Part shown: one piece after another, positions 1,037 through 19,919 of the stretch
How positions within the stretch are numbered: position 1 is the stretch's first letter
How the letters are laid out: every line of letters begins with the position of its first letter
From: a virus
DNA: 25,015 nt
Direction: 5' to 3' (one strand)
IMG/VR virus record: IMGVR_UViG_3300028743_000150
Span: 1 to 25,015 of that record
Position numbers and translations under genes: made by a program
The notes under the pieces: generated by a model
Seen by the model: only the letters and a program-made list of their open reading frames with translations
The model's database searches: none
Told to the model about the DNA's origin: nothing

Positions 1037-2095
1037 ATGGACGAAATCACCCGTCAAAAATTCAACACTTTCGCGGCCAATGTCGCGCGCCTCAACAACG
1101 TGGCGGCGGATCGCGTGGGCGTGCCCAACGCCGGGCATTTCAGCGTCACCCCGTCGGTGCAGCAGACGCTGGTCAAGCGGATGCAGGAAAGCATCGAATT
1201 CTTGCAGAGCGTCAACATCCTGCCACGCGACGAAATGGTCGGGCAAAAGCTGGGCCTGTCGATCAGCCAGTTGATCGCCCGCACTCAGAAGGCCAACCCC
1301 GCCAATCCGCGCACCGGCACCGATCCCACCAGCATGGACGGCTTTGGCTATACGCTGCGCAAGACCAATTTCGACACCTGGCTGGGCTATGACACGCTCG
1401 ACACCTGGGCGAAATTCCCCGAATTCGAACAGTTCTGCCGCGATCTGATCGTTACCGCCATTGCGCAGGATCACATCAAGATCGGATTCAACGGTATTGA
1501 ATGGAATGAAACCTCCGATCCGGTGAATAACCCGCTGGGGCAGGACGTAAATCGCGGTTGGCTGCAAGCCATGCGCGAGGAAAACCCCACGCGCGTTATC
1601 TCCACCGGCAAGGCCGAGCCGGGGAAGGTCACTTACGGCGCGGCGGGCGATTTCAACAATATCGACGAACTGGTCTACAAGCTGAAGCAGTCCACGCTGC
1701 CGAGCTGGGCGCGCAAGGCGCCGGGCCTGGTGGCCATCGTGGGCGATGATCTGATCTATCAGAAATATGGCGCGATCATCGCCAAGAGCGAAGGTTCGCT
1801 CGACACCATCGCGCGCCAGGTGCTGATGGGGCAGATGACGTTCGGCGATCTGCCCGGCGTGCGCGTGCCCTATTTCCCGTCCGACACGGTGATGATCACC
1901 ACGCTGGCCGAGGCCGACAAGCCGCTCTCGTCCAACCTGTCGATCTATTACCAGAACGGCAAGAACCGCCGCAAGCTGTGGGACCGTCCCGATCTGGACG
2001 GCGTGTCCGACCTGCAATCGTCCAACCTCGCCTTTGTGGTGGAAGATTACACCTACGCCTGCATGGCCGAGAATATCACCCCCAAGGAAGCGTGA
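1037..2095 (+). CDS. N: P2-family major capsid protein gpN
   Basis: This is a 352-residue protein, about the length of P2 gpN (357). It forms the icosahedral head shell. The start region MDEITRQKFNTFAANVARLN and the later blocks GFGYTLRKTNFDT, YDTLDTWAKF, IGFNGIEWN and the C-terminal VVEDYTYACMAENI are typical of the family. In P2 the precursor is matured by the gpO protease, whose gene here survives only as a tail just upstream, so correct head maturation is doubtful. No strong Shine-Dalgarno site is visible; there is an AGAAAG stretch about 10 bases upstream. The reading frame is intact. It is followed by a 102-base gap with two hairpins before the terminase gene. Confidence 0.95.
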   Translation: MDEITRQKFNTFAANVARLNNVAADRVGVPNAGHFSVTPSVQQTLVKRMQESIEFLQSVNILPRDEMVGQKLGLSISQLIARTQKANPANPRTGTDPTSMDGFGYTLRKTNFDTWLGYDTLDTWAKFPEFEQFCRDLIVTAIAQDHIKIGFNGIEWNETSDPVNNPLGQDVNRGWLQAMREENPTRVISTGKAEPGKVTYGAAGDFNNIDELVYKLKQSTLPSWARKAPGLVAIVGDDLIYQKYGAIIAKSEGSLDTIARQVLMGQMTFGDLPGVRVPYFPSDTVMITTLAEADKPLSSNLSIYYQNGKNRRKLWDRPDLDGVSDLQSSNLAFVVEDYTYACMAENITPKEA

Positions 2096-3998: not shown

Positions 3999-4030
3999 GT
4001 ATGCCCGCATACCTGTATACAGGCATACAC
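3999..4030. promoter_or_regulatory. Four-unit GTATRC octad array (candidate partition-protein binding site)
   Basis: Four consecutive 8-bp units begin at 3999, 4007, 4015 and 4023: GTATGCCC, GCATACCT, GTATACAG, GCATACAC. Units 1, 2 and 4 are the same hexamer in alternating orientation (GTATGC is the reverse complement of GCATAC). Unit 3 lies inside the perfect palindrome CCTGTATACAGG (4012-4023). The same hexamer at the same spacing forms the six-unit array upstream of parA. Ribbon-helix-helix proteins commonly bind short repeats at fixed spacing, so the RHH protein of the par operon is the obvious candidate binder. The array ends 30 bases before the acidic-protein gene and could regulate it. 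Confidence 0.7.
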
Positions 4031-4060
4031 CCAAACCCCACCTCAATGGAGTATCCCAAC

Positions 4061-4435
4061 ATGACGAAGATCATCGAAACCGCTGTCAACGCGATCACCG
4101 GCCTGGTCCACGACGCTGAAAGCGTCATCGAGCGCCTGGTCCATGGTGCCGAGGCCACCGTCGACAATCTGGAAGCTGACGGCGAAGGTCTGGTCGATCG
4201 CCTGACCGGCAAGGCTGACATTGCCGACACCGAGGGCGCCGACACCGAGGGCGCCGACACCGAGGAAGGCAGCACGGTCGAGGCCGACACCTCCACCGAG
4301 AACGCCAGCACGGACAGCAACCTGACTGCCACCGATCCGGCGCCCACCGCCGACGCCCCCGCCGCCGATCCGGCCCCCACCGCCGATGCCCCCGCCGCCG
4401 CCCCGGCGGCTGATGCTCCGGCCGCCACCGAATAA
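4061..4435 (+). CDS. Acidic, repeat-rich small protein of unknown function (124 aa)
   Basis: The start at 4061 is set by GGAG at 4048-4051. Residues 1-50 are a predicted amphipathic helix rich in hydrophobic heptads (MTKIIETAVNAITGLVHDAE and onward). Residues 55-68 are tandem DTEGA units encoded by 15-bp direct repeats. The rest is low-complexity Ala/Pro/Asp/Thr with two copies of PAPTADAPAA. There is almost no Lys or Arg after residue 50, so the protein is strongly acidic. I do not recognise it. An acidic tail of this kind could mimic DNA or act as a flexible linker, but nothing proves that. It sits between head genes and directly behind the GTATRC array, which may make it the one virion-region gene controlled by the partition protein. 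Confidence 0.75.
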   Translation: MTKIIETAVNAITGLVHDAESVIERLVHGAEATVDNLEADGEGLVDRLTGKADIADTEGADTEGADTEEGSTVEADTSTENASTDSNLTATDPAPTADAPAADPAPTADAPAAAPAADAPAATE

Positions 4436-4542: not shown

Positions 4543-5181
4543 ATGTCCACCTCGCCCCTGATCGCTATCGGCGCCCCTAATCCGGCCACACTGGCAGGCA
4601 CTGTCGCGGGTGATGGCTGGTGGCCCGATGTCGATTGCGCCGATGCGCGCGCAAAGCTGCGCCTGCCTGATTACGTCACCGGCCCGCGCCTGACCGGCGC
4701 CATCGAGGGCGCCTATCTCACCGTCGCGCGCCAGCTTGGCCAGTGGCGCGCAAAGATGGAGCGGGCAGGGGCCACCAGCCTGTCCGCGATCACCGCCACC
4801 GAACTGGCCGCCGCCTGCGCCGCCGATGATCCGCGCCCGCTGGGCTATGCCATGGATGACATTTTCGGCGATAGCTGGGCGCGCCTGCCTTGCCATCATC
4901 ACCTGCGCCGCCGCCCGCCGCCCGACGCGCTGCCCTCCGAAATCGCCGATGTGGTCGTGATGGTCAACGGCAAAACCGGCCTGATGGTCCAATGGCAGCG
5001 CGCCGTGTATTATCTGGCCATGGCCGAGGTGTCCGACGAATATCGCGACATGGCCACAATCAGCACCAAACAGCCGCGCGTGGACGCCATCGAATCCACG
5101 GGCCGGGACTATAGCCGCATGGCATCCGATGCTATCCGCTACATTCTGGGCACCACTGCTGTGGCGGTCGATCTGATCTGA
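4543..5181 (+). CDS. L: Head completion/stabilization protein gpL, P2 family, with an insert
   Basis: This is a 212-residue protein. The N-terminal part (WWPDVDCADARAKLRLPDYVTGPRLTGAIEGA, then LGQWRAKMERAGATSL) and the C-terminal part (VQWQRAVYYLAMAEVSDEYRD, then YSRMASDAIRYILGT..VAVDLI) follow the gpL pattern. P2 gpL plugs and stabilizes the filled head before tail joining. The protein is longer than the roughly 150-170 residues usual for the family. The extra stretch, about residues 106-140, contains the odd basic run CHHHLRRRPPP. The frame is continuous, so this is an insertion rather than a frameshift. The stop codon overlaps the start of X by one base. Confidence 0.85.
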   Translation: MSTSPLIAIGAPNPATLAGTVAGDGWWPDVDCADARAKLRLPDYVTGPRLTGAIEGAYLTVARQLGQWRAKMERAGATSLSAITATELAAACAADDPRPLGYAMDDIFGDSWARLPCHHHLRRRPPPDALPSEIADVVVMVNGKTGLMVQWQRAVYYLAMAEVSDEYRDMATISTKQPRVDAIESTGRDYSRMASDAIRYILGTTAVAVDLI

Positions 5182-6458: not shown

Positions 6459-6704
6459 ATGATAATCGTATGGGACGAACCAAAGCGCCTTTTCAATCTC
6501 GAAAAGCACGGGATTGATTTCAGGGACATTGACGAGGCTTTCTTTGCCTCTGCCCTGATCGGCCCGGCTAAGGCAGGGCGCTGGTTTGCCATCGGTGAAA
6601 TGGATGGCGTGAAGGTAGTGATCTTTGCCCGCCTTGGCACCGAAGGCCTGTCGATCATCTCGGCACGCCCTGCAAGCCGCAAGGAAAGGAACCTGATCGC
6701 ATGA
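6459..6704 (+). CDS. brnT: BrnT-family toxin (ribonuclease)
   Basis: This 81-residue protein has the BrnT layout MIIVWDEPKRLFNLEKHGIDFRDIDEAFF, with the conserved WDE.K...N..KHG.DF block, then VVIFARLGTEGLSIISARPASRKER, where relatives carry the IISARkAs.rEr ending. BrnT toxins have a RelE-like fold and cut RNA. Binding of BrnA neutralizes them. Catalytic-type residues (Lys/Arg/His in the first block and Arg in the last) are present. The gene lies directly after the AT-rich operator and overlaps brnA by four bases (ATGA). A toxin-antitoxin pair inside a phage genome could act in stable maintenance or against competing phages. Confidence 0.9.
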   Translation: MIIVWDEPKRLFNLEKHGIDFRDIDEAFFASALIGPAKAGRWFAIGEMDGVKVVIFARLGTEGLSIISARPASRKERNLIA

Positions 6705-6979
6705 CAAAGCTGCCATATACCCAAGCCGATATGGACGCCGTGTCGGACAATCCCGAACTGACGGCGGCGGATATTGCCGCCGCCCGCCCCTTTGCCGAGG
6801 TATTCCCTGAACTGGCCGCCACGATGCGCGGCGGGCGCGGCCCTCAAAAAATGCCGACTAAGGTCAGCACCACAATCCGGCTCTCGCCCGAAGTGATCGC
6901 CCATTTCAAACAGGGCGGTACAGGGTGGCAGGCTCGGATCGATGCAGCGCTCAAGGAATGGGTGGCGGGGCATTCTTGA
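6701..6979 (+). CDS. brnA: BrnA-family antitoxin, ribbon-helix-helix
   Basis: This is a 92-residue protein. The N-terminal half is a flexible toxin-binding part (YTQADMDAVSDNPELTAADIAAARPFAEVFPEL), and the C-terminal half holds the DNA-binding motif VSTTIRLSPEVIAHFKQGGTGWQARIDAALKEWV. That motif is the BrnA form of the ribbon-helix-helix. The start overlaps the brnT stop by four bases. BrnA both blocks BrnT and represses the operon. It is the second RHH protein in this region, the other being the partition protein. The two have different sequences and should bind different sites. Confidence 0.9.
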   Translation: MTKLPYTQADMDAVSDNPELTAADIAAARPFAEVFPELAATMRGGRGPQKMPTKVSTTIRLSPEVIAHFKQGGTGWQARIDAALKEWVAGHS

Positions 6980-7016
6980 GGAGCGCCAGCCACAACCCGA
7001 ATGCACCAGATAACGC

Positions 7017-7048
7017 ATCGCTAGGCAGGTTCTAGCATGAACAGCGAT
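7017..7048. other. Nested dyads between convergent brnTA and par operons
   Basis: ATCGCT (7017-7022) pairs with AGCGAT (7043-7048), and inside it GCTAG (7020-7024) pairs with CTAGC (7032-7036). They lie in the 91-base gap between two converging operons, where a shared terminator would be expected. No T-run is visible on either strand, so the terminator role is weak. Confidence 0.25.
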
Positions 7049-7070
7049 TGAGGTGCAGTCAGCCATCCCA

Positions 7071-7463
7071 TCACCGTCGCCGCCCCCCGCCTTTCTTCAC
7101 CAGAAGATCGCTGATCGCCTCCTCTAGTAGCGCCTGCACGGTAGTGTTCTCCTCGGCGGCCAGGATGCGCAATTGGGTAGAGATTTCGGGGGCGAAGTGG
7201 CCGCCGATCAGCTTTTTGCCCTCGCGCCCCCTGCTGGGCAGGGGCGCCGTTGCTCCACCGCGCTCGCCGGAGCCTGTCACAGTGCTTGATTGATGTGCCG
7301 CCGCCGCGACTTGTGCCGCAAGCTGCCCCAGATCCACGATGGGCAGGGAAACAGTGTTCGGCGCGCTGCTGGCGGGGGCATGGTCGGTCGTGTCCCCCTT
7401 GGCCGCTGCGGCCAAAGCTGCGGCTAGTCCACGTCCTGCACTCTTGCGGCGCTTGTCAGTCAT
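7071..7463 (-). CDS. Ribbon-helix-helix partition protein (ParB/ParG-like centromere binder)
   Basis: This is a 130-residue protein. The chosen ATG at 7463 has AGGAAGGG just upstream and overlaps the stop of the 55-residue gene. The C-terminal part (residues 84-124: KLIGGHFAPEISTQLRILAAEENTTVQALLEEAISDLL) is a ribbon-helix-helix fold, as in the centromere-binding partners of type Ib partition ATPases such as ParG. Residues 8-20, KSAGRGLAAALAA, resemble the N-terminal GRGLxALL motif by which ParB proteins touch ParA. The middle 45 residues are a flexible Ala/Ser/Gly linker. It most likely binds the GTATRC octads, represses the operon and stimulates ParA. The partition role is inferred from operon and fold. 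Confidence 0.8.
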   Translation of the reverse strand: MTDKRRKSAGRGLAAALAAAAKGDTTDHAPASSAPNTVSLPIVDLGQLAAQVAAAAHQSSTVTGSGERGGATAPLPSRGREGKKLIGGHFAPEISTQLRILAAEENTTVQALLEEAISDLLVKKGGGRRR

Positions 7464-7623
7464 GGTTTTGCCCTTCCTCTTTTTCACTGGCGCGGATGGC
7501 CTTGCGCAGCGCCACCAGCTTGGCAGCGGCTTGCGTATCGGGCTGCCCAAACGCCTCCACAAATTCGCGGGCTGCGTCGCGTACTAAACGCAATCGAACA
7601 ACTTCCTCACACAAATCAGGCAT
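7456..7623 (-). CDS. 55-residue protein between parA and the RHH gene
   Basis: ATG at 7621-7623 overlaps the parA stop by eight bases, and its TGA at 7456-7458 overlaps the start of the RHH gene by eight bases. The frame is fully open. The protein is MPDLCEEVVRLRLVRDAAR, then a helical FVEAFGQPDTQAAAKLVALRKAIRA, and a Glu-rich end. It is almost all predicted helix with alternating charge, like a small coiled-coil dimer. I do not recognise a family. The tight coupling on both sides argues that it is made with the two partition proteins and could be a third subunit or modulator. It could instead serve only to couple translation of its neighbours. Confidence 0.7.
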   Translation of the reverse strand: MPDLCEEVVRLRLVRDAAREFVEAFGQPDTQAAAKLVALRKAIRASEKEEGQNHD

Positions 7624-8260
7624 TATCGCCAGTCTCCATCACCTTACACGCATACGTGTATACGTCCGCAATCTCCTGCGCCGCCGCACTTTTGGGCGCG
7701 TATTCCTGCACGGCCAGGCCATCCACCTGGGCGCGAGAATAGTCTTTGCGGTTGCCGATCAGGATCGGGCAAACCTGCGCCCCCATCGCGGCTACGGCCT
7801 CCATGGTTTCTGCTGCCTCTGCTCCGCGCGGGGCCACTTGGGTCAGTATCACGCGGGCGGGCTTGCCCAACTGGCGCACCAGATCGAGCGTGTGCCCCAT
7901 GCTGATCGTATCGAACAGGGCAGGGCGCGTGGGGATCAGCACCAGGTCGGCTACGCTGGCCGCCGCATGGGCTACATCGCGCGCCACCGCTGCGCCATCA
8001 ATCACCACCAGATCAGCCCCGGCGCGCTCTGCCGCCTTGATCGTATGGGACAGGCGCACCGCCTGGATGGATTGCACCGTGGGTTCGTCCAGCCCCGATG
8101 CCTCCAGGCGCCGGTCGGCCCATGCGGCGGCGGTGGCCTGTGGGTCCAGATCGAGCAGGCAGGTTGCCTTGCCATCGGCCTGCGCGGCCACGGCAATACA
8201 CGTGGCCAGCGTGGTTTTGCCCACGCCGCCCTTTTGCGAGAGAATAGCGATAACTTGCAC
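7616..8260 (-). CDS. parA: ParA-family partition ATPase (small, type Ib-like)
   Basis: This is a 214-residue protein starting at GTG, with AGAAGGA eight bases upstream. The deviant Walker A KGGVGKTT (residues 10-17) with its signature lysine, the switch region LLDLDPQATAAAW (35-47) and the Walker B-like LVVIDGA (84-90) define a ParA/MinD ATPase. It lacks the N-terminal helix-turn-helix of type Ia ParA proteins and has the length of type Ib ParF/Soj-like ATPases, which form ATP-dependent dimers on the nucleoid and move plasmid copies. The order ATPase, then RHH protein, with repeats upstream matches type Ib plasmid partition loci. Its presence in a P2-like prophage is unusual and hints at plasmid-like maintenance. 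Confidence 0.93.
   Translation of the reverse strand: MQVIAILSQKGGVGKTTLATCIAVAAQADGKATCLLDLDPQATAAAWADRRLEASGLDEPTVQSIQAVRLSHTIKAAERAGADLVVIDGAAVARDVAHAAASVADLVLIPTRPALFDTISMGHTLDLVRQLGKPARVILTQVAPRGAEAAETMEAVAAMGAQVCPILIGNRKDYSRAQVDGLAVQEYAPKSAAAQEIADVYTYACKVMETGDNA
7642..7665. repeat. Octad pair of the GTATRC type inside the 3' end of parA
   Basis: GCATACGT (7650-7657) and GTATACGT (7658-7665) are two direct octads with the spacing of the upstream array, preceded by the degenerate CCTTACAC (7642-7649). They lie in codons for DVYTYACKV of ParA. They may be a secondary binding site or chance from codon choice. The exact 8-base spacing makes them worth noting. Confidence 0.45.
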
Positions 8261-8308
8261 GAAAGCTTCCTTCTGTTTTGCAGCTTGAAGGGTGTTTCGG
8301 CCCTACCT

Positions 8309-8357
8309 GTAAGCTTGTATGGTCGTATGCGTGTATACAGGTATACGACCATACAAG
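8309..8357. promoter_or_regulatory. Six-unit GTATRC octad array: candidate par centromere and operator
   Basis: Direct reading from 8309 gives octads GTAAGCTT, GTATGGTC, GTATGCGT, GTATACAG, GTATACGA, CCATACAA, strictly every 8 bases. The block is also a 44-bp inverted repeat: CTTGTATGGTCGTATGC (8314-8330) against GTATACGACCATACAAG (8341-8357), 16 of 17 pairing, around a 10-base centre. It lies 49 bases upstream of the parA start and overlaps its predicted promoter. Type Ib systems place the centromere in exactly this spot, where the RHH protein binds phased short repeats to repress the operon and seed the partition complex. Confidence 0.8.
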
Positions 8358-8360
8358 CAA
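8332..8360 (-). promoter_or_regulatory. Predicted parA operon promoter within the octad array
   Basis: On the minus strand TTGCTT (8355-8360) and TATACA (8332-8337) are 17 bases apart. The -10 matches four of six consensus bases; the -35 matches three. Transcription would start near 8325 and give a leader of about 65 bases before the GTG of parA. Both boxes lie in octads, so binding of the RHH protein would block RNA polymerase. Confidence 0.5.
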
Positions 8361-8382
8361 GGCCTCTATGCCCTTGGCACAT

Positions 8383-8412
8383 AAAAAAGAGGCCGAAGGT
8401 TTCCCCCCGGCC
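8383..8412 (-). terminator. Intrinsic terminator of the lysis/tail operon
   Basis: Read on the minus strand, GGCCGGGGG (8404-8412) pairs with CCTTCGGCC (8391-8399), nine pairs including two G-U, closed by a GAAA tetraloop. It is followed at once by TCTTTTTT (8383-8390). This is a textbook Rho-independent terminator. It lies 25 bases after the last gene of the leftward operon and isolates that operon from the par promoter downstream. Confidence 0.9.
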
Positions 8413-8436
8413 CCCGTCAAATTCTGCCCCTACGCC

Positions 8437-8580
8437 TCACGCCTTGGGCTGCGCCGCCATCCATGCATCATACGCGGCCTTGGTGGCGGCCTCGTCCCAA
8501 TCGTCCCCGGCCTCATTCAGCACCTGAAACACCGTGCCGTCCTGCGCCGTGATATAGGCAATATCCGAATTATAGGCCAT
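8437..8580 (-). CDS. Small protein after the tail gene (47 aa), hypothetical
   Basis: ATG at 8580 is preceded by AAGGGG at a good distance and follows the tail-protein stop by 12 bases. The 47 residues (MAYNSDIAYITAQDGTVFQVLNEAG then DDWDEAATKAAYDAWMAAQ) look like a short beta hairpin plus helix. I do not recognise a family. As the last gene of the operon, directly behind a fibre-like gene, it could be an assembly helper or a small tail component, as short genes after fibre genes often are. That is inference from position only. Confidence 0.7.
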   Translation of the reverse strand: MAYNSDIAYITAQDGTVFQVLNEAGDDWDEAATKAAYDAWMAAQPKA

Positions 8581-8592
8581 GTCGATTACCCC

Positions 8593-10197
8593 TTATCCTG
8601 CGGTAAAGCTGCTGGTGAGACGCATCGTGGCCTGCGCGGTGGCCCCGTTTTTATAGACGACGCGATAGAGCGCAGCGCTGCTGAACGGCCCCGTCAGCGG
8701 CGCGCGCGCCTGTGCCACGTAATAGGTCGTGCCCGCCGCATTGGTCACCGCCGTCGCGGTCACGCTCTGCACCGGGATGTAGGTCGTCCCCGTGTCATAG
8801 CTGGCCTCGATATACAGTGTCCCGGCCTGATCGGCCTGGGCCTGGGCATTATAGAACGAATATTGCGGCCCAAACGAGGAGTTGAAGGTGCGCCCCGTGC
8901 CGGTGAACGTCGCCGCCGCGCCCAGCGCCGTGGTGCTGTCGGAATAGCCGGTGGACGTGTTCACGGTGCCCGTCACCGCCCCGATGGTCGACGAGCTACC
9001 CGCCAACGAAATTCCGGTGAAGGGCGCCACAGCGCGCTTCTGTGCCAGAACCACCGTCACGGTGCCACTGACATAGGTCGAGACGCGGGCGCGGACGTAG
9101 GCCGCCGACGAGGCAAAGCCATAGATGCCGAGCGCGTTGGAAATCGATCCCGGCGAAGATGTACTCGACGCCGTGCCCACACCAATAACGGGTAGGGTAA
9201 TCCACGTCACATTGTCGTTGGATTGCTCAAAGGTAATCGTGCTGCTGGTGCCGGTCGCGGTGACCTGAAACGAACCGCCCGCAAAGCCCGCCGTGCTGGC
9301 GCTCACCACTACCGCGGCGCTGGTCGCGCTGCCGCTGGTCACGGCGGCGTCGGCAACATCATCCACGGATACACCGCCAATATGCGCCATGCCCGCCACC
9401 AAGGGCGCAGCACTGGCCTTGTAGATGGCCGACAGCCACCCGGTCAGGCCCAACCCGCCCGCAGGCATGGCCGTGCCCGTGATGGCGCTGCCGGCAGGCT
9501 CGAGATTGGACAGATCGGTGGCAGAGGCAAACGACAGGCTACCCGCCCCGGCCTTGGCGCCCAGGCTGGCGGGCAACTGCCCGCTGATGGCGGCCAGCGA
9601 GGTGTTGGCCACCGCCTGATTGCCCGCCGTCGCCGCGCCAGCGGGCAGCGGCAGAGCAGCAGCGGAAATCGCCTGCGTCGCGGGCAGATTGGCGACGTTC
9701 ACCGATCCGCTCACGGCCTGCGTCGCGGGGAAATTGGCGACGCTCACTGCCCCGCTCACCGGCTGCGTCGCGGGGAGATTGGCGACGACCACCGATCCGC
9801 TCACCGGCTGCGTCGCGGGGAAGTTGGCCACGCTTACGGCCCCGCTCACCGGCTGCACCGCCGGGAAGTTAGATACCGCTACCGATCCCGCGATACCGCC
9901 GCCGGATGATCCCGGCGCGGCCATCGCCGATCCCAGCCCGATCGCCAGAGTGGCGGGCATCGCGGCATGATCGAGGCTGGCCCAGATATGCAGGCCAGTA
10001 GCCCCCCAGATTTCGCCCGGATCAACCAGCGCGCCGCTGGTGGGCGCATCGGCGCTGTCGGTATAGGCTAGCAGGATCTGCCCAGGCCCCTTGTTCTGGA
10101 CCCAGCTCGCCACCGCCGATGCGCTGGCAAACTGCGTGGTCAGGTCTACCCAGCTATCATCATTTAGGGCGCGGTCGCCCAGATAGGCGTCGGTCAT
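8593..10197 (-). CDS. Phage tail stalk/fibre-like protein with 15-residue repeats
   Basis: This is a 534-residue protein. The N-terminus (about 1-100) is a compact domain with WVDLTTQFA and ILLAYTDSADAP segments. Then five 15-residue repeats of the form V.VANFPATQPVSG.. follow, alternating NFP and NLP, a pattern common in phage stalk and neck proteins. The C-terminal 300 residues are Ser/Thr/Ala-rich beta structure, with an ITFEQSNDNVTWITLP block and a repeated LYIEASYDTGTTYIPV-like strand set. There is no Cys. It is probably an extended surface or tail appendage; which one is not clear. The gene overlaps the i-spanin stop by four bases, so it is co-expressed with lysis functions, unlike the main tail genes. 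Confidence 0.75.
   Translation of the reverse strand: MTDAYLGDRALNDDSWVDLTTQFASASAVASWVQNKGPGQILLAYTDSADAPTSGALVDPGEIWGATGLHIWASLDHAAMPATLAIGLGSAMAAPGSSGGGIAGSVAVSNFPAVQPVSGAVSVANFPATQPVSGSVVVANLPATQPVSGAVSVANFPATQAVSGSVNVANLPATQAISAAALPLPAGAATAGNQAVANTSLAAISGQLPASLGAKAGAGSLSFASATDLSNLEPAGSAITGTAMPAGGLGLTGWLSAIYKASAAPLVAGMAHIGGVSVDDVADAAVTSGSATSAAVVVSASTAGFAGGSFQVTATGTSSTITFEQSNDNVTWITLPVIGVGTASSTSSPGSISNALGIYGFASSAAYVRARVSTYVSGTVTVVLAQKRAVAPFTGISLAGSSSTIGAVTGTVNTSTGYSDSTTALGAAATFTGTGRTFNSSFGPQYSFYNAQAQADQAGTLYIEASYDTGTTYIPVQSVTATAVTNAAGTTYYVAQARAPLTGPFSSAALYRVVYKNGATAQATMRLTSSFTAG
9671..9895 (-). repeat. Five tandem 45-bp repeats in the stalk gene
   Basis: Five imperfect copies of a 45-bp unit, each containing a version of GCTGCGTCGCGGGGAAATTG on the plus strand, encode the 15-residue repeats. 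Copies diverge mainly at third positions and at the Phe/Leu site. Repeat number could change by slippage or recombination and so alter stalk length. Confidence 0.85.
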
Positions 10198-11152: not shown

Positions 11153-11751
11153 GCCGCGTCCATCATGCAAACGGCGCGCTCGCGCTGACGGCGGCTCTGC
11201 AAGCCCCGCACCACGCGGCCACCGGCCCGATCAAAATAGGTCAGGCTGGTGCAGCTCGCGCGGATATGGCCCGCATTGATCTGCGCGCGCATGGTCGATC
11301 GGCAATAGGTTGGCCACCCGATGTTATGGGCGAGGCTGACAGCGGCAAAGCGCACATTGTCCCGGCGGGGCATGGTCAGGGCAAGGCCGGGAGTGCAGGC
11401 CATGACATGGCTGGCCGTGTCGGCCAGGCGCGCCTCGAGCATGGTGTCGCACTGGGCTTCGGTAAAGTGCTGGCCCAGCTTGATACCCTCGCCGGTCAAG
11501 CCATCGCAGGCCGTGGGCACGCCCACCAGATCGAGATAGACCCGCAGATATTGGGGGCCGCTGACGGCGCGCATGGTGGTCTGCCCGCTGGGCGCCACAC
11601 TCACGGCTACCTTGCGCCCGCTTTCCGCCGCCGGGACATTGGTCAGCAACAGCGCGGCGGTGGCCGATCCGACAATCGCCACCAGCTTGCCCACCAGAAT
11701 CACTGCCGGTCGGTTGCCGGTGCTGTCCGGCGTGTCCTGGTCATTGGGCAT
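11149..11751 (-). CDS. Phage lysozyme-like endolysin (GH24-type fold) with N-terminal anchor
   Basis: This is a 200-residue protein. Residues 17-37 (VILVGKLVAIVGSATAALLLT) are a hydrophobic segment like a signal-anchor-release domain. Residues 68-84 (YLRVYLDLVGVPTACDG) and the later blocks HFTEAQCDTMLEARL, SLAHNIGW..YCRSTM and AGGRVVRGLQSRRQRERAVC match the T4/P21-type muramidase fold. Asp74 and Thr80 keep the family D-x5-T spacing, but the Glu expected eight residues before the Asp is replaced: residue 65 is Gly and residue 64 Ser. It is probably still the endolysin, since the cassette holds no other. Several Cys residues suggest disulfide control. It overlaps the holin gene by 11 bases. Confidence 0.85.
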   Translation of the reverse strand: MPNDQDTPDSTGNRPAVILVGKLVAIVGSATAALLLTNVPAAESGRKVAVSVAPSGQTTMRAVSGPQYLRVYLDLVGVPTACDGLTGEGIKLGQHFTEAQCDTMLEARLADTASHVMACTPGLALTMPRRDNVRFAAVSLAHNIGWPTYCRSTMRAQINAGHIRASCTSLTYFDRAGGRVVRGLQSRRQRERAVCMMDAA

Positions 11752-18767: not shown

Positions 18768-19919
18768 ATGGCCCGTTCCACGATTTTCCACGGCATCAAG
18801 ACCAACCTGCTGTCGACCACCTCGCTGACCATCACCAGCGTTTCCACCGCCGTGATTGGCCTTGTGGCGACGGCGGATGATGCCGATGCCACCGTGTTTC
18901 CGCTCGATACCCCGGTGGCCATCACTGATGTGCGCGCCGCGATCACCAGCGCCGGGGCGACCGGCACGCTGGCGCTCTCGCTGGCGGCTATCGCCGATCA
19001 GTGCCAGCCCGTGGTGGTGGTAGTGCGCGTGGCCACGGATGCCACCGACGCCACCGGCCAGGACGCGCTGGTCACGGGGGCTACGCATGGCGGGTATACG
19101 GGTATGCAGGCCCTGCTGGTGGCCGAGCTGCATACGGGCAGCAAGCCGCGTATTATCGCTGCGCCGGGGCTGGAAAGCCCTACGGTGATCGGCGCGCTGG
19201 CCACGGTGGCCAAGGGGTTGCGCGGGGTGGCCTATTGCTATCTGCCCGCCGCCGCGCGCGATGACGCGATCACCGCCGCCGCCAGCTATGGCCAGCGCGA
19301 GCTGATGCTGTTTTGGCCCAATGCCACGGGAACCTATGTCGCGGCGCTGGCTGTGGGCTTGCGCGCGCAGATTGATGCCAGCACTGGGTGGCACAAGACG
19401 GTTTCCAACGTGCTATTGGCGGGCGTCACCGGGCTGGATCATGCGATCACCTGGGCGCTGGACGGCGGATCGAGCGACGCCACCTTGCTCAACAATGCGC
19501 GGATCACCACGCTGATCAACCGCAATGGCTGGCGCTTCTGGGGCAATCGCACCACCAGCGACGACGACGCCTACAGCTTCGAAAGCGCCACGCGCACCAG
19601 CCAGGTGTTGCAGGATAGCATCGACGAGGCGTGCTTTGTCTATGCCGACAAGCCGCTGACGCTCCAACTGGTCAAGATCATTCTGAGCGACATCAACACC
19701 TATCTCAAGAAGCTGGCCAAGGCCGGGCAGATCATCGGGGGCAAGGCCGAGTATGATCCCAGCCTCAATAATGACAGCGCGCTGAACAATGGCCAGTTGG
19801 CGATCAGCTATGATTTCACCGCCGTGGCGCCGCTGGAAGGTCAGACCTACAACCAGACGATCACCGACACTTACTATGTCAATTTCAACGCGCTGGCGAC
19901 CACCACCACGGCGTCCTGA
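18768..19919 (+). CDS. FI: Contractile tail sheath protein FI, P2 family
   Basis: This is a 383-residue protein (P2 FI has 396). Family blocks are MARSTIFHGIKTNLLSTTSL, VIGLVATADDADATVFPLDTPVAITDV, RIIAAPGLESPTVIGALATVAKGLRGVAYCYLPAA, INRNGWRFWGNRTTSDDDAYSFESATRTSQVLQDSIDEA and the C-terminal VAPLEGQTYNQTITDTYYVNF. The C-terminal part interlocks sheath subunits. The protein contracts to drive the tube through the envelope. GGAT precedes the ATG. Codons 109-114 (GYTGMQ) contain two GTATRC octads. Confidence 0.96.
   Translation: MARSTIFHGIKTNLLSTTSLTITSVSTAVIGLVATADDADATVFPLDTPVAITDVRAAITSAGATGTLALSLAAIADQCQPVVVVVRVATDATDATGQDALVTGATHGGYTGMQALLVAELHTGSKPRIIAAPGLESPTVIGALATVAKGLRGVAYCYLPAAARDDAITAAASYGQRELMLFWPNATGTYVAALAVGLRAQIDASTGWHKTVSNVLLAGVTGLDHAITWALDGGSSDATLLNNARITTLINRNGWRFWGNRTTSDDDAYSFESATRTSQVLQDSIDEACFVYADKPLTLQLVKIILSDINTYLKKLAKAGQIIGGKAEYDPSLNNDSALNNGQLAISYDFTAVAPLEGQTYNQTITDTYYVNFNALATTTTAS

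Follow-up and report, generated by a model that had tools for sequence, protein, structure and literature searches.

The phased octad array in front of parA in this viral DNA quite probably serves as both operator and centromere for a type Ib (ParF/ParG-like) partition module that was captured by P2-like phages. The window, namely the whole stretch of DNA that was analysed, is the entire IMG/VR record of 25,015 bp and covers a fragment of a P2-like alphaproteobacterial phage. Besides the major capsid protein, its P2-type late genes encode Phage_tube FII, a terminase small subunit, a head-tail adaptor (connector), baseplate, sheath and endolysin. The features concerned are as follows.

1037..2095, + strand: P2-family major capsid protein (PF05125, 5.6e-104)
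3999..4028, no strand assigned: third octad array, four exact units (GTATGC, GCATAC, GTATAC, GCATAC), intergenic
6459..6979, + strand: BrnT/BrnA toxin-antitoxin pair (Pfam BrnT 6.2e-15, BrnA 2.1e-23)
7071..7463, - strand: RHH protein, 130 aa (PF20605 Antitox_RHH, Pfam 3.5e-22), the proposed centromere-binding protein
7616..8260, - strand: ParA, ParF-like, 214 aa, GTG start (Pfam CbiA 5.8e-17, AAA_31 8.4e-13)
7642..7663, - strand: second octad array, three units, in the 3' end of parA and ahead of the RHH gene
8309..8354, no strand assigned: parA-proximal octad array, six units with an 8-bp period, the proposed operator and centromere

No replication or integration genes are visible in the 25-kb window. 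At its left end an IS91-type transposase sequence (15-975), similar copies of which are found on many sphingomonad plasmids, lies immediately ahead of the P2 capsid gene, and the phage may have been interrupted by this element. Taken together, the lack of visible replication and integration genes and the transposase at the left end suggest that the window may be a decayed prophage. The BrnT/BrnA pair, a probable second stabilisation module, adjoins the par operon and is convergent with it in the P2-like late region, placing two plasmid-type stabilisation modules side by side.

The parA-proximal array reads, octad by octad on the + strand from 8309, GTAAGCTT GTATGGTC GTATGCGT GTATACAG GTATACGA CCATACAA. 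Its units are GTAAGC (8309), GTATGG (8317), GTATGC (8325), GTATAC (8333), GTATAC (8341) and CCATAC (8349), the last in the inverted orientation (GYATAC). Three of the six match GTATRC exactly and the other three differ by one mismatch, which bears out the six GTATRC-type units at an exact 8-bp period described in an earlier note on this DNA. The inverted repeat around them, put there at 44 bp, is present but measures 46 bp (8313-8358), with 23-nt arms that are 91% complementary and no spacer, and the array lies inside it or overlaps it. Upstream of parA, the near edge of the array comes within 48 bp of the GTG start at 8260. An overlap with a predicted parA promoter was not confirmed, as no sigma-70-like site was found in 6900-8700; a promoter of alphaproteobacterial type may nonetheless be present. 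Allowing up to two mismatches, GTATRCN2GTATRC matches the window 20 times against 3.3 expected, a count reached by none of 100 shuffles. Three-octad arrays matching at 16 or more of 18 positions begin at 8 positions in three clusters, compared with 0.1 per shuffle, and the control of 922 kb of real viral sequence from other loci yielded one array of such quality.

The octad site beside parA does not stand alone but is one of several in the window: the arrays at 7642-7663 and 3999-4028, the latter 3.6 kb away from the par genes, had been overlooked in the earlier note. Also overlooked was a match of two exact octads (GTATACGGGTATGC) at 19094-19107 within the tail sheath gene, which may be due to chance. 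The array at the 3' end of parA is spelled in the codons of a conserved peptide (LYEYTxIRLY in plasmids), so that constraints on DNA and on protein overlap there.

The ParA protein carries the Walker-type sequence SQKGGVGKTT (residues 8-17, a deviant Walker A) and no N-terminal HTH; its only Pfam domains above the cut-off are of the P-loop type. A search of its profile against the PDB matched ParA (5u1g) and ParF (4dzz), with ParF of TP228 among the best matches, and its identity to plasmid and phage homologues is 56-69%. The RHH protein scores 78.7 bits against PF20605, for which the Pfam gathering cut-off is 27.2. Alignments of homologues place its start at the ATG at 7463, while the start at 7562 chosen by the ORF caller has no support from homologues. 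In the AlphaFold model the N-terminus is disordered, two C-terminal helices are predicted with confidence (pLDDT >90), and the ribbon strand of the RHH fold is unformed in this monomer model. The fold search returned Arc first (E 0.43, probability 0.95) and ParG second (E 0.61, probability 0.84), with E-values that are not significant, and a search of PDB sequences with the RHH alignment gave no match. The RHH gene lies downstream of parA in most loci, whereas in L007 it is 2.2 kb away. Most of the RHH family shares an N-terminal motif SLQAxLxRA, the conserved arginine of which is a candidate arginine finger. In the window protein this arginine is replaced by alanine, with GLAAALAAAAK at residues ~12-22 in place of the motif. 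Stimulation of the ATPase may thus be altered in the window's copy of the RHH protein, which may itself be altered or decaying.

The octads were then looked for in homologous par loci, the check that the earlier note had called for, and were found upstream of parA in both plasmid and phage homologues. The RHH protein occurs on plasmids of Sphingobium, Sphingomonas, Rhizorhabdus, Polymorphobacter, Komagataeibacter and Acetobacter. In the six plasmid regions that were read, its gene follows parA beside a replication initiator (rep) gene; in one of them (L012) parA is frameshifted and unannotated. GTATAC octads stand at up to three fixed places on the plasmids of sphingomonads and acetic acid bacteria. 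All five plasmids scanned in full have three arrays: one precedes parA, one is in its 3' end and one follows the RHH gene. Among 19 further plasmid and genome loci, several of which are near copies of one another and which thus represent fewer than 19 independent cases, 18 have an array before parA, 17 have one at +585/+593 counted from the parA start, and 14 show one at +907 to +930. Similar to the plasmids, two phages (G004 and G005) also have an array at the 3' end of parA.

The 8-bp period was measured by a lag score in 42 non-redundant par loci in which an RHH gene could be detected, each represented by its best 40-bp segment ahead of parA. The mean match at lag 8 is 0.562 compared with 0.374 ± 0.011 in shuffles, and lag 16 gives 0.566, while other lags remain near background (0.32-0.43). 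No such 8-bp signal is seen within parA or at -1000 in these loci. The core word differs between lineages, being GTATAC, GTMGAC (L007/L015), GTGGAC/GTCCAC (Caulobacter and relatives, plus a second locus of Novosphingobium umbonatum) or CATG (L052, L055, L057, L063, L064). Thus the 42 loci share the 8-bp period ahead of parA but vary in core word. The beta-strand of the RHH protein varies alongside the word (TKLIGGHF, TKQIAGHF, GKTMIAGYF, GKKAMTGYF). This covariation, which is confounded with descent, agrees with a strand that would read the word.

Perfect 8-bp minisatellites do exist in unrelated phages (L227, L236), and the arrays could in principle be chance repeats or minisatellites that lack a function. 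The units here are imperfect, however, they keep phase across divergent loci and they occupy fixed places in the cassette, making such an origin extremely improbable; it was ruled out by the family-wide 8-bp phase in the 42 loci together with the fixed places of the arrays. When GTATRC and GTMGAC arrays were sought across the viral collection with no bias towards any protein, 39 stretches were found. ParA and RHH genes accompany 3 of them, so that an octad array alone is not diagnostic, and the others are minisatellites or probably due to chance. Long perfect GTAGACCC octad minisatellites were seen in 35-kb phage contigs (L229, L230, L232, L235, L236). One of them, at L236:3593-3814, lies between two small genes that resemble HigB/HigA by eye, with no par genes adjoining. 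The long GTAGACCC arrays (L229-L236) were examined and set aside. The RHH protein had no match in the INPHARED phage records, nor in an initial viral scan that used this protein alone, and the same measure revealed no clear octad array in VP882 and a faecal phage contig with weaker ParA.

Five other viral records with a P2 capsid (G001-G005) carry the ParA-RHH pair, and all five have an array before parA. The words are GTMGAC only, with no GTATRC, in G001 and GTATRC only in the other phages. Distal arrays, with the phage's own word as the core, are found in the window and in four of the five relatives, the exception being G005. They lie at 11208 in G001, 2725 and 27560 in G002, 3929 in G003, and 4570 and 27015 in G004. 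The arrays at 2725 in G002 and 3929 in G003 lie at the 3' end of a repressor-like gene, and the one at 27560 in G002 follows the portal gene. In G004, the array at 4570 is at the end of gene S and that at 27015 is in the tail operon between tube and gpE. Distal arrays thus stand mostly at gene ends or within operons, not at promoters, which leans towards centromere-type sites over operators. This position bears directly on the proposal that the arrays are operators only, by which the RHH protein, with or without ParA, would autoregulate the pair and the distal arrays would control other phage genes, with no partition of the phage. RHH proteins of such kind do repress, and each of the three separate parS sites of pSM19035 (9, 7 and 10 iterons) overlaps a promoter (PMC5016525). 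The absence of the candidate arginine finger from the window RHH protein and the integration of one relative (G001) also agree with this proposal. Nevertheless, the distal arrays of G002, G003 and G004 are mostly not at promoter positions, the proposal leaves ParA without an obvious role, and the cassette stands beside rep in the plasmids read. We therefore regard an operator function alone as unlikely.

Integration was established in the G001 relative, which corresponds to a contig of N. umbonatum. The prophage there is bounded by two copies of a 22-bp direct repeat, at 65960 and 105734. The copy at 105734 lies at the end of tRNA-Asn next to the integrase, indicating that these are att repeats and that the phage is integrated. 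Partition would not be needed while it is integrated, which counts against the partition reading, as do the arginine replaced in the window RHH protein, the possible decay of the window prophage and the octad arrays that occur without ParA and RHH genes. Integrase domains were found in G001, G003 and G004. In the tree, the ParA proteins of the window and G001 are sisters with full support. Their core words differ, as do the RHH beta-strands (KKLIGGHF in the window versus TKQIAGHF in G001). A switch of word within a sister pair is therefore indicated, and the change in both word and strand is as expected if the RHH protein reads the word. A further ParA-RHH locus of N. umbonatum bears GTCCAC octads (L189:3736-3784) beside an apparent replication gene, so that two words are present in one cell. 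Sister phages that differ in word (GTATRC in the window, GTMGAC in G001) and a host that combines a GTMGAC prophage with a GTCCAC locus would also suit competition between elements. A resident RHH-ParA pair would then capture or silence incoming phages or plasmids of the same word through incompatibility at the distal arrays, selecting for a change of word. Drift in an autoregulated pair, however, would give divergent words as well, and we consider competition very unlikely as the role of the distal arrays.

The operator and centromere reading is strengthened by comparison with known partition systems. Type Ib sites consist of direct and inverted repeats upstream of the operon, and the RHH protein doubles as repressor (PMC5016525). 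The octad module has a small ParA without an HTH, a downstream RHH gene and phased direct and inverted repeats upstream of the operon; judged from its sequence, it would be a form of type Ib partition and not a separate type. In the type Ib system parFGH of TP228 (ParF ATPase, ParG RHH protein, parH centromere), as in the window, a repeat array lies upstream and a small RHH gene downstream. The boxes of parH are 4 bp long with 4-bp AT-rich spacers, also giving an 8-bp phase. TP228 ParF is among the nearest PDB matches of the window ParA, and ParG is a weak second fold match of the RHH protein. However, the window RHH protein belongs to PF20605 with no PDB sequence match, its core is a 6-bp near-palindrome (GTATAC, GTMGAC and others) instead of degenerate tetramers in AT-rich spacers, and the octad family has further arrays in parA and after the RHH gene. 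The delta/omega/parS system of pSM19035, also type Ib, shares phased short direct and inverted repeats at several separate sites with the window, but it has 7-bp heptads and genes in more than one operon on a Gram-positive plasmid, whereas the window has 8-bp octads and one operon in P2-like phages. The par region of the Agrobacterium plasmid pTAR contains phased short palindromes.

Among phages, Burkholderia phage KS14 is P2-like with a plasmid prophage, and encodes ParA gp40 and a small downstream protein gp41 (PMC3091744), which looks like an RHH centromere-binding protein. We found phased repeats of ~11-bp period with a GTTGATATC-like word upstream of its parA and at the parA 3' end:

L195:3187-3436 and 4050-4127: KS14 repeats

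KS14 resembles the window in being P2-like, in its ParA with a small downstream protein and in phased repeats at two matching places, but it differs in the ~11-bp instead of 8-bp period, in a ParA that is not closely related and in a betaproteobacterial host. The phage-plasmid N15 has several centromere sites, IR1-4 (PMC7205306); its sop system is of type Ia (SopA/SopB) with single palindromes, unlike the RHH octad arrays of the window. The srpMRC locus of the SXT/R391 ICE is a plasmid-type partition locus on an integrating element that serves the excised form (PMC4489591). It is of the ParM/ParR type and on a conjugative element, not a phage. Precedents therefore exist for par on an integrating element (SXT/R391, PMC4489591) and for a ParA-bearing P2-like plasmid prophage (KS14, PMC3091744). 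In the open-licence literature, we found no paper on ParA, RHH proteins and partition in Sphingobium and no octad centromere for the PF20605 family.

Direct observations comprise the arrays with their conserved phase and positions, their linkage to ParA and RHH genes, the match of words within a genome, the P2 context and the integration of one relative; we infer RHH binding, repression of the operon, partition and a benefit to the phage. RHH dimers would bind successive octads, one dimer to each 8 bp whether the unit is direct or inverted, coating the array, and the bound protein would repress the parA-RHH operon. The RHH-array complex would be moved over the nucleoid by the ParF-like ParA ATPase, and the distal arrays would be further binding sites of the same RHH protein. 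The assignment of a ParG/Omega-type RHH partition site made in the earlier note is supported by the conserved octads, the ParF-like ParA and the weak ParG fold match, with the centromere itself as a putative one. The module would belong to a family that is common on small plasmids of alphaproteobacteria, from which P2-like phages would have taken it up. Its most likely role in the phage would be to guard against loss at division of a genome that is not integrated, be it a plasmid-like prophage, an excised copy or one that has newly entered the cell.

A broader picture can be put forward tentatively, and we hold it possible though doubtful. P2-like phages able to integrate would have a dispersed, multi-array RHH centromere, whose word switches with the RHH beta-strand between sisters. 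They would lead a double life, either integrated or partitioned as plasmid-like elements, and would fall into incompatibility groups by octad word. PF20605, a family named 'antitoxin-like', is here the standing partner of a ParF-like ATPase beside phased arrays, making its role predictable and testable. The fixed 8-bp phase with many core words offers a natural series on how RHH proteins choose their sites. P2-like phages with par genes would blur the boundary that separates phages which integrate from plasmids, and the short length of their sites allows direct testing.
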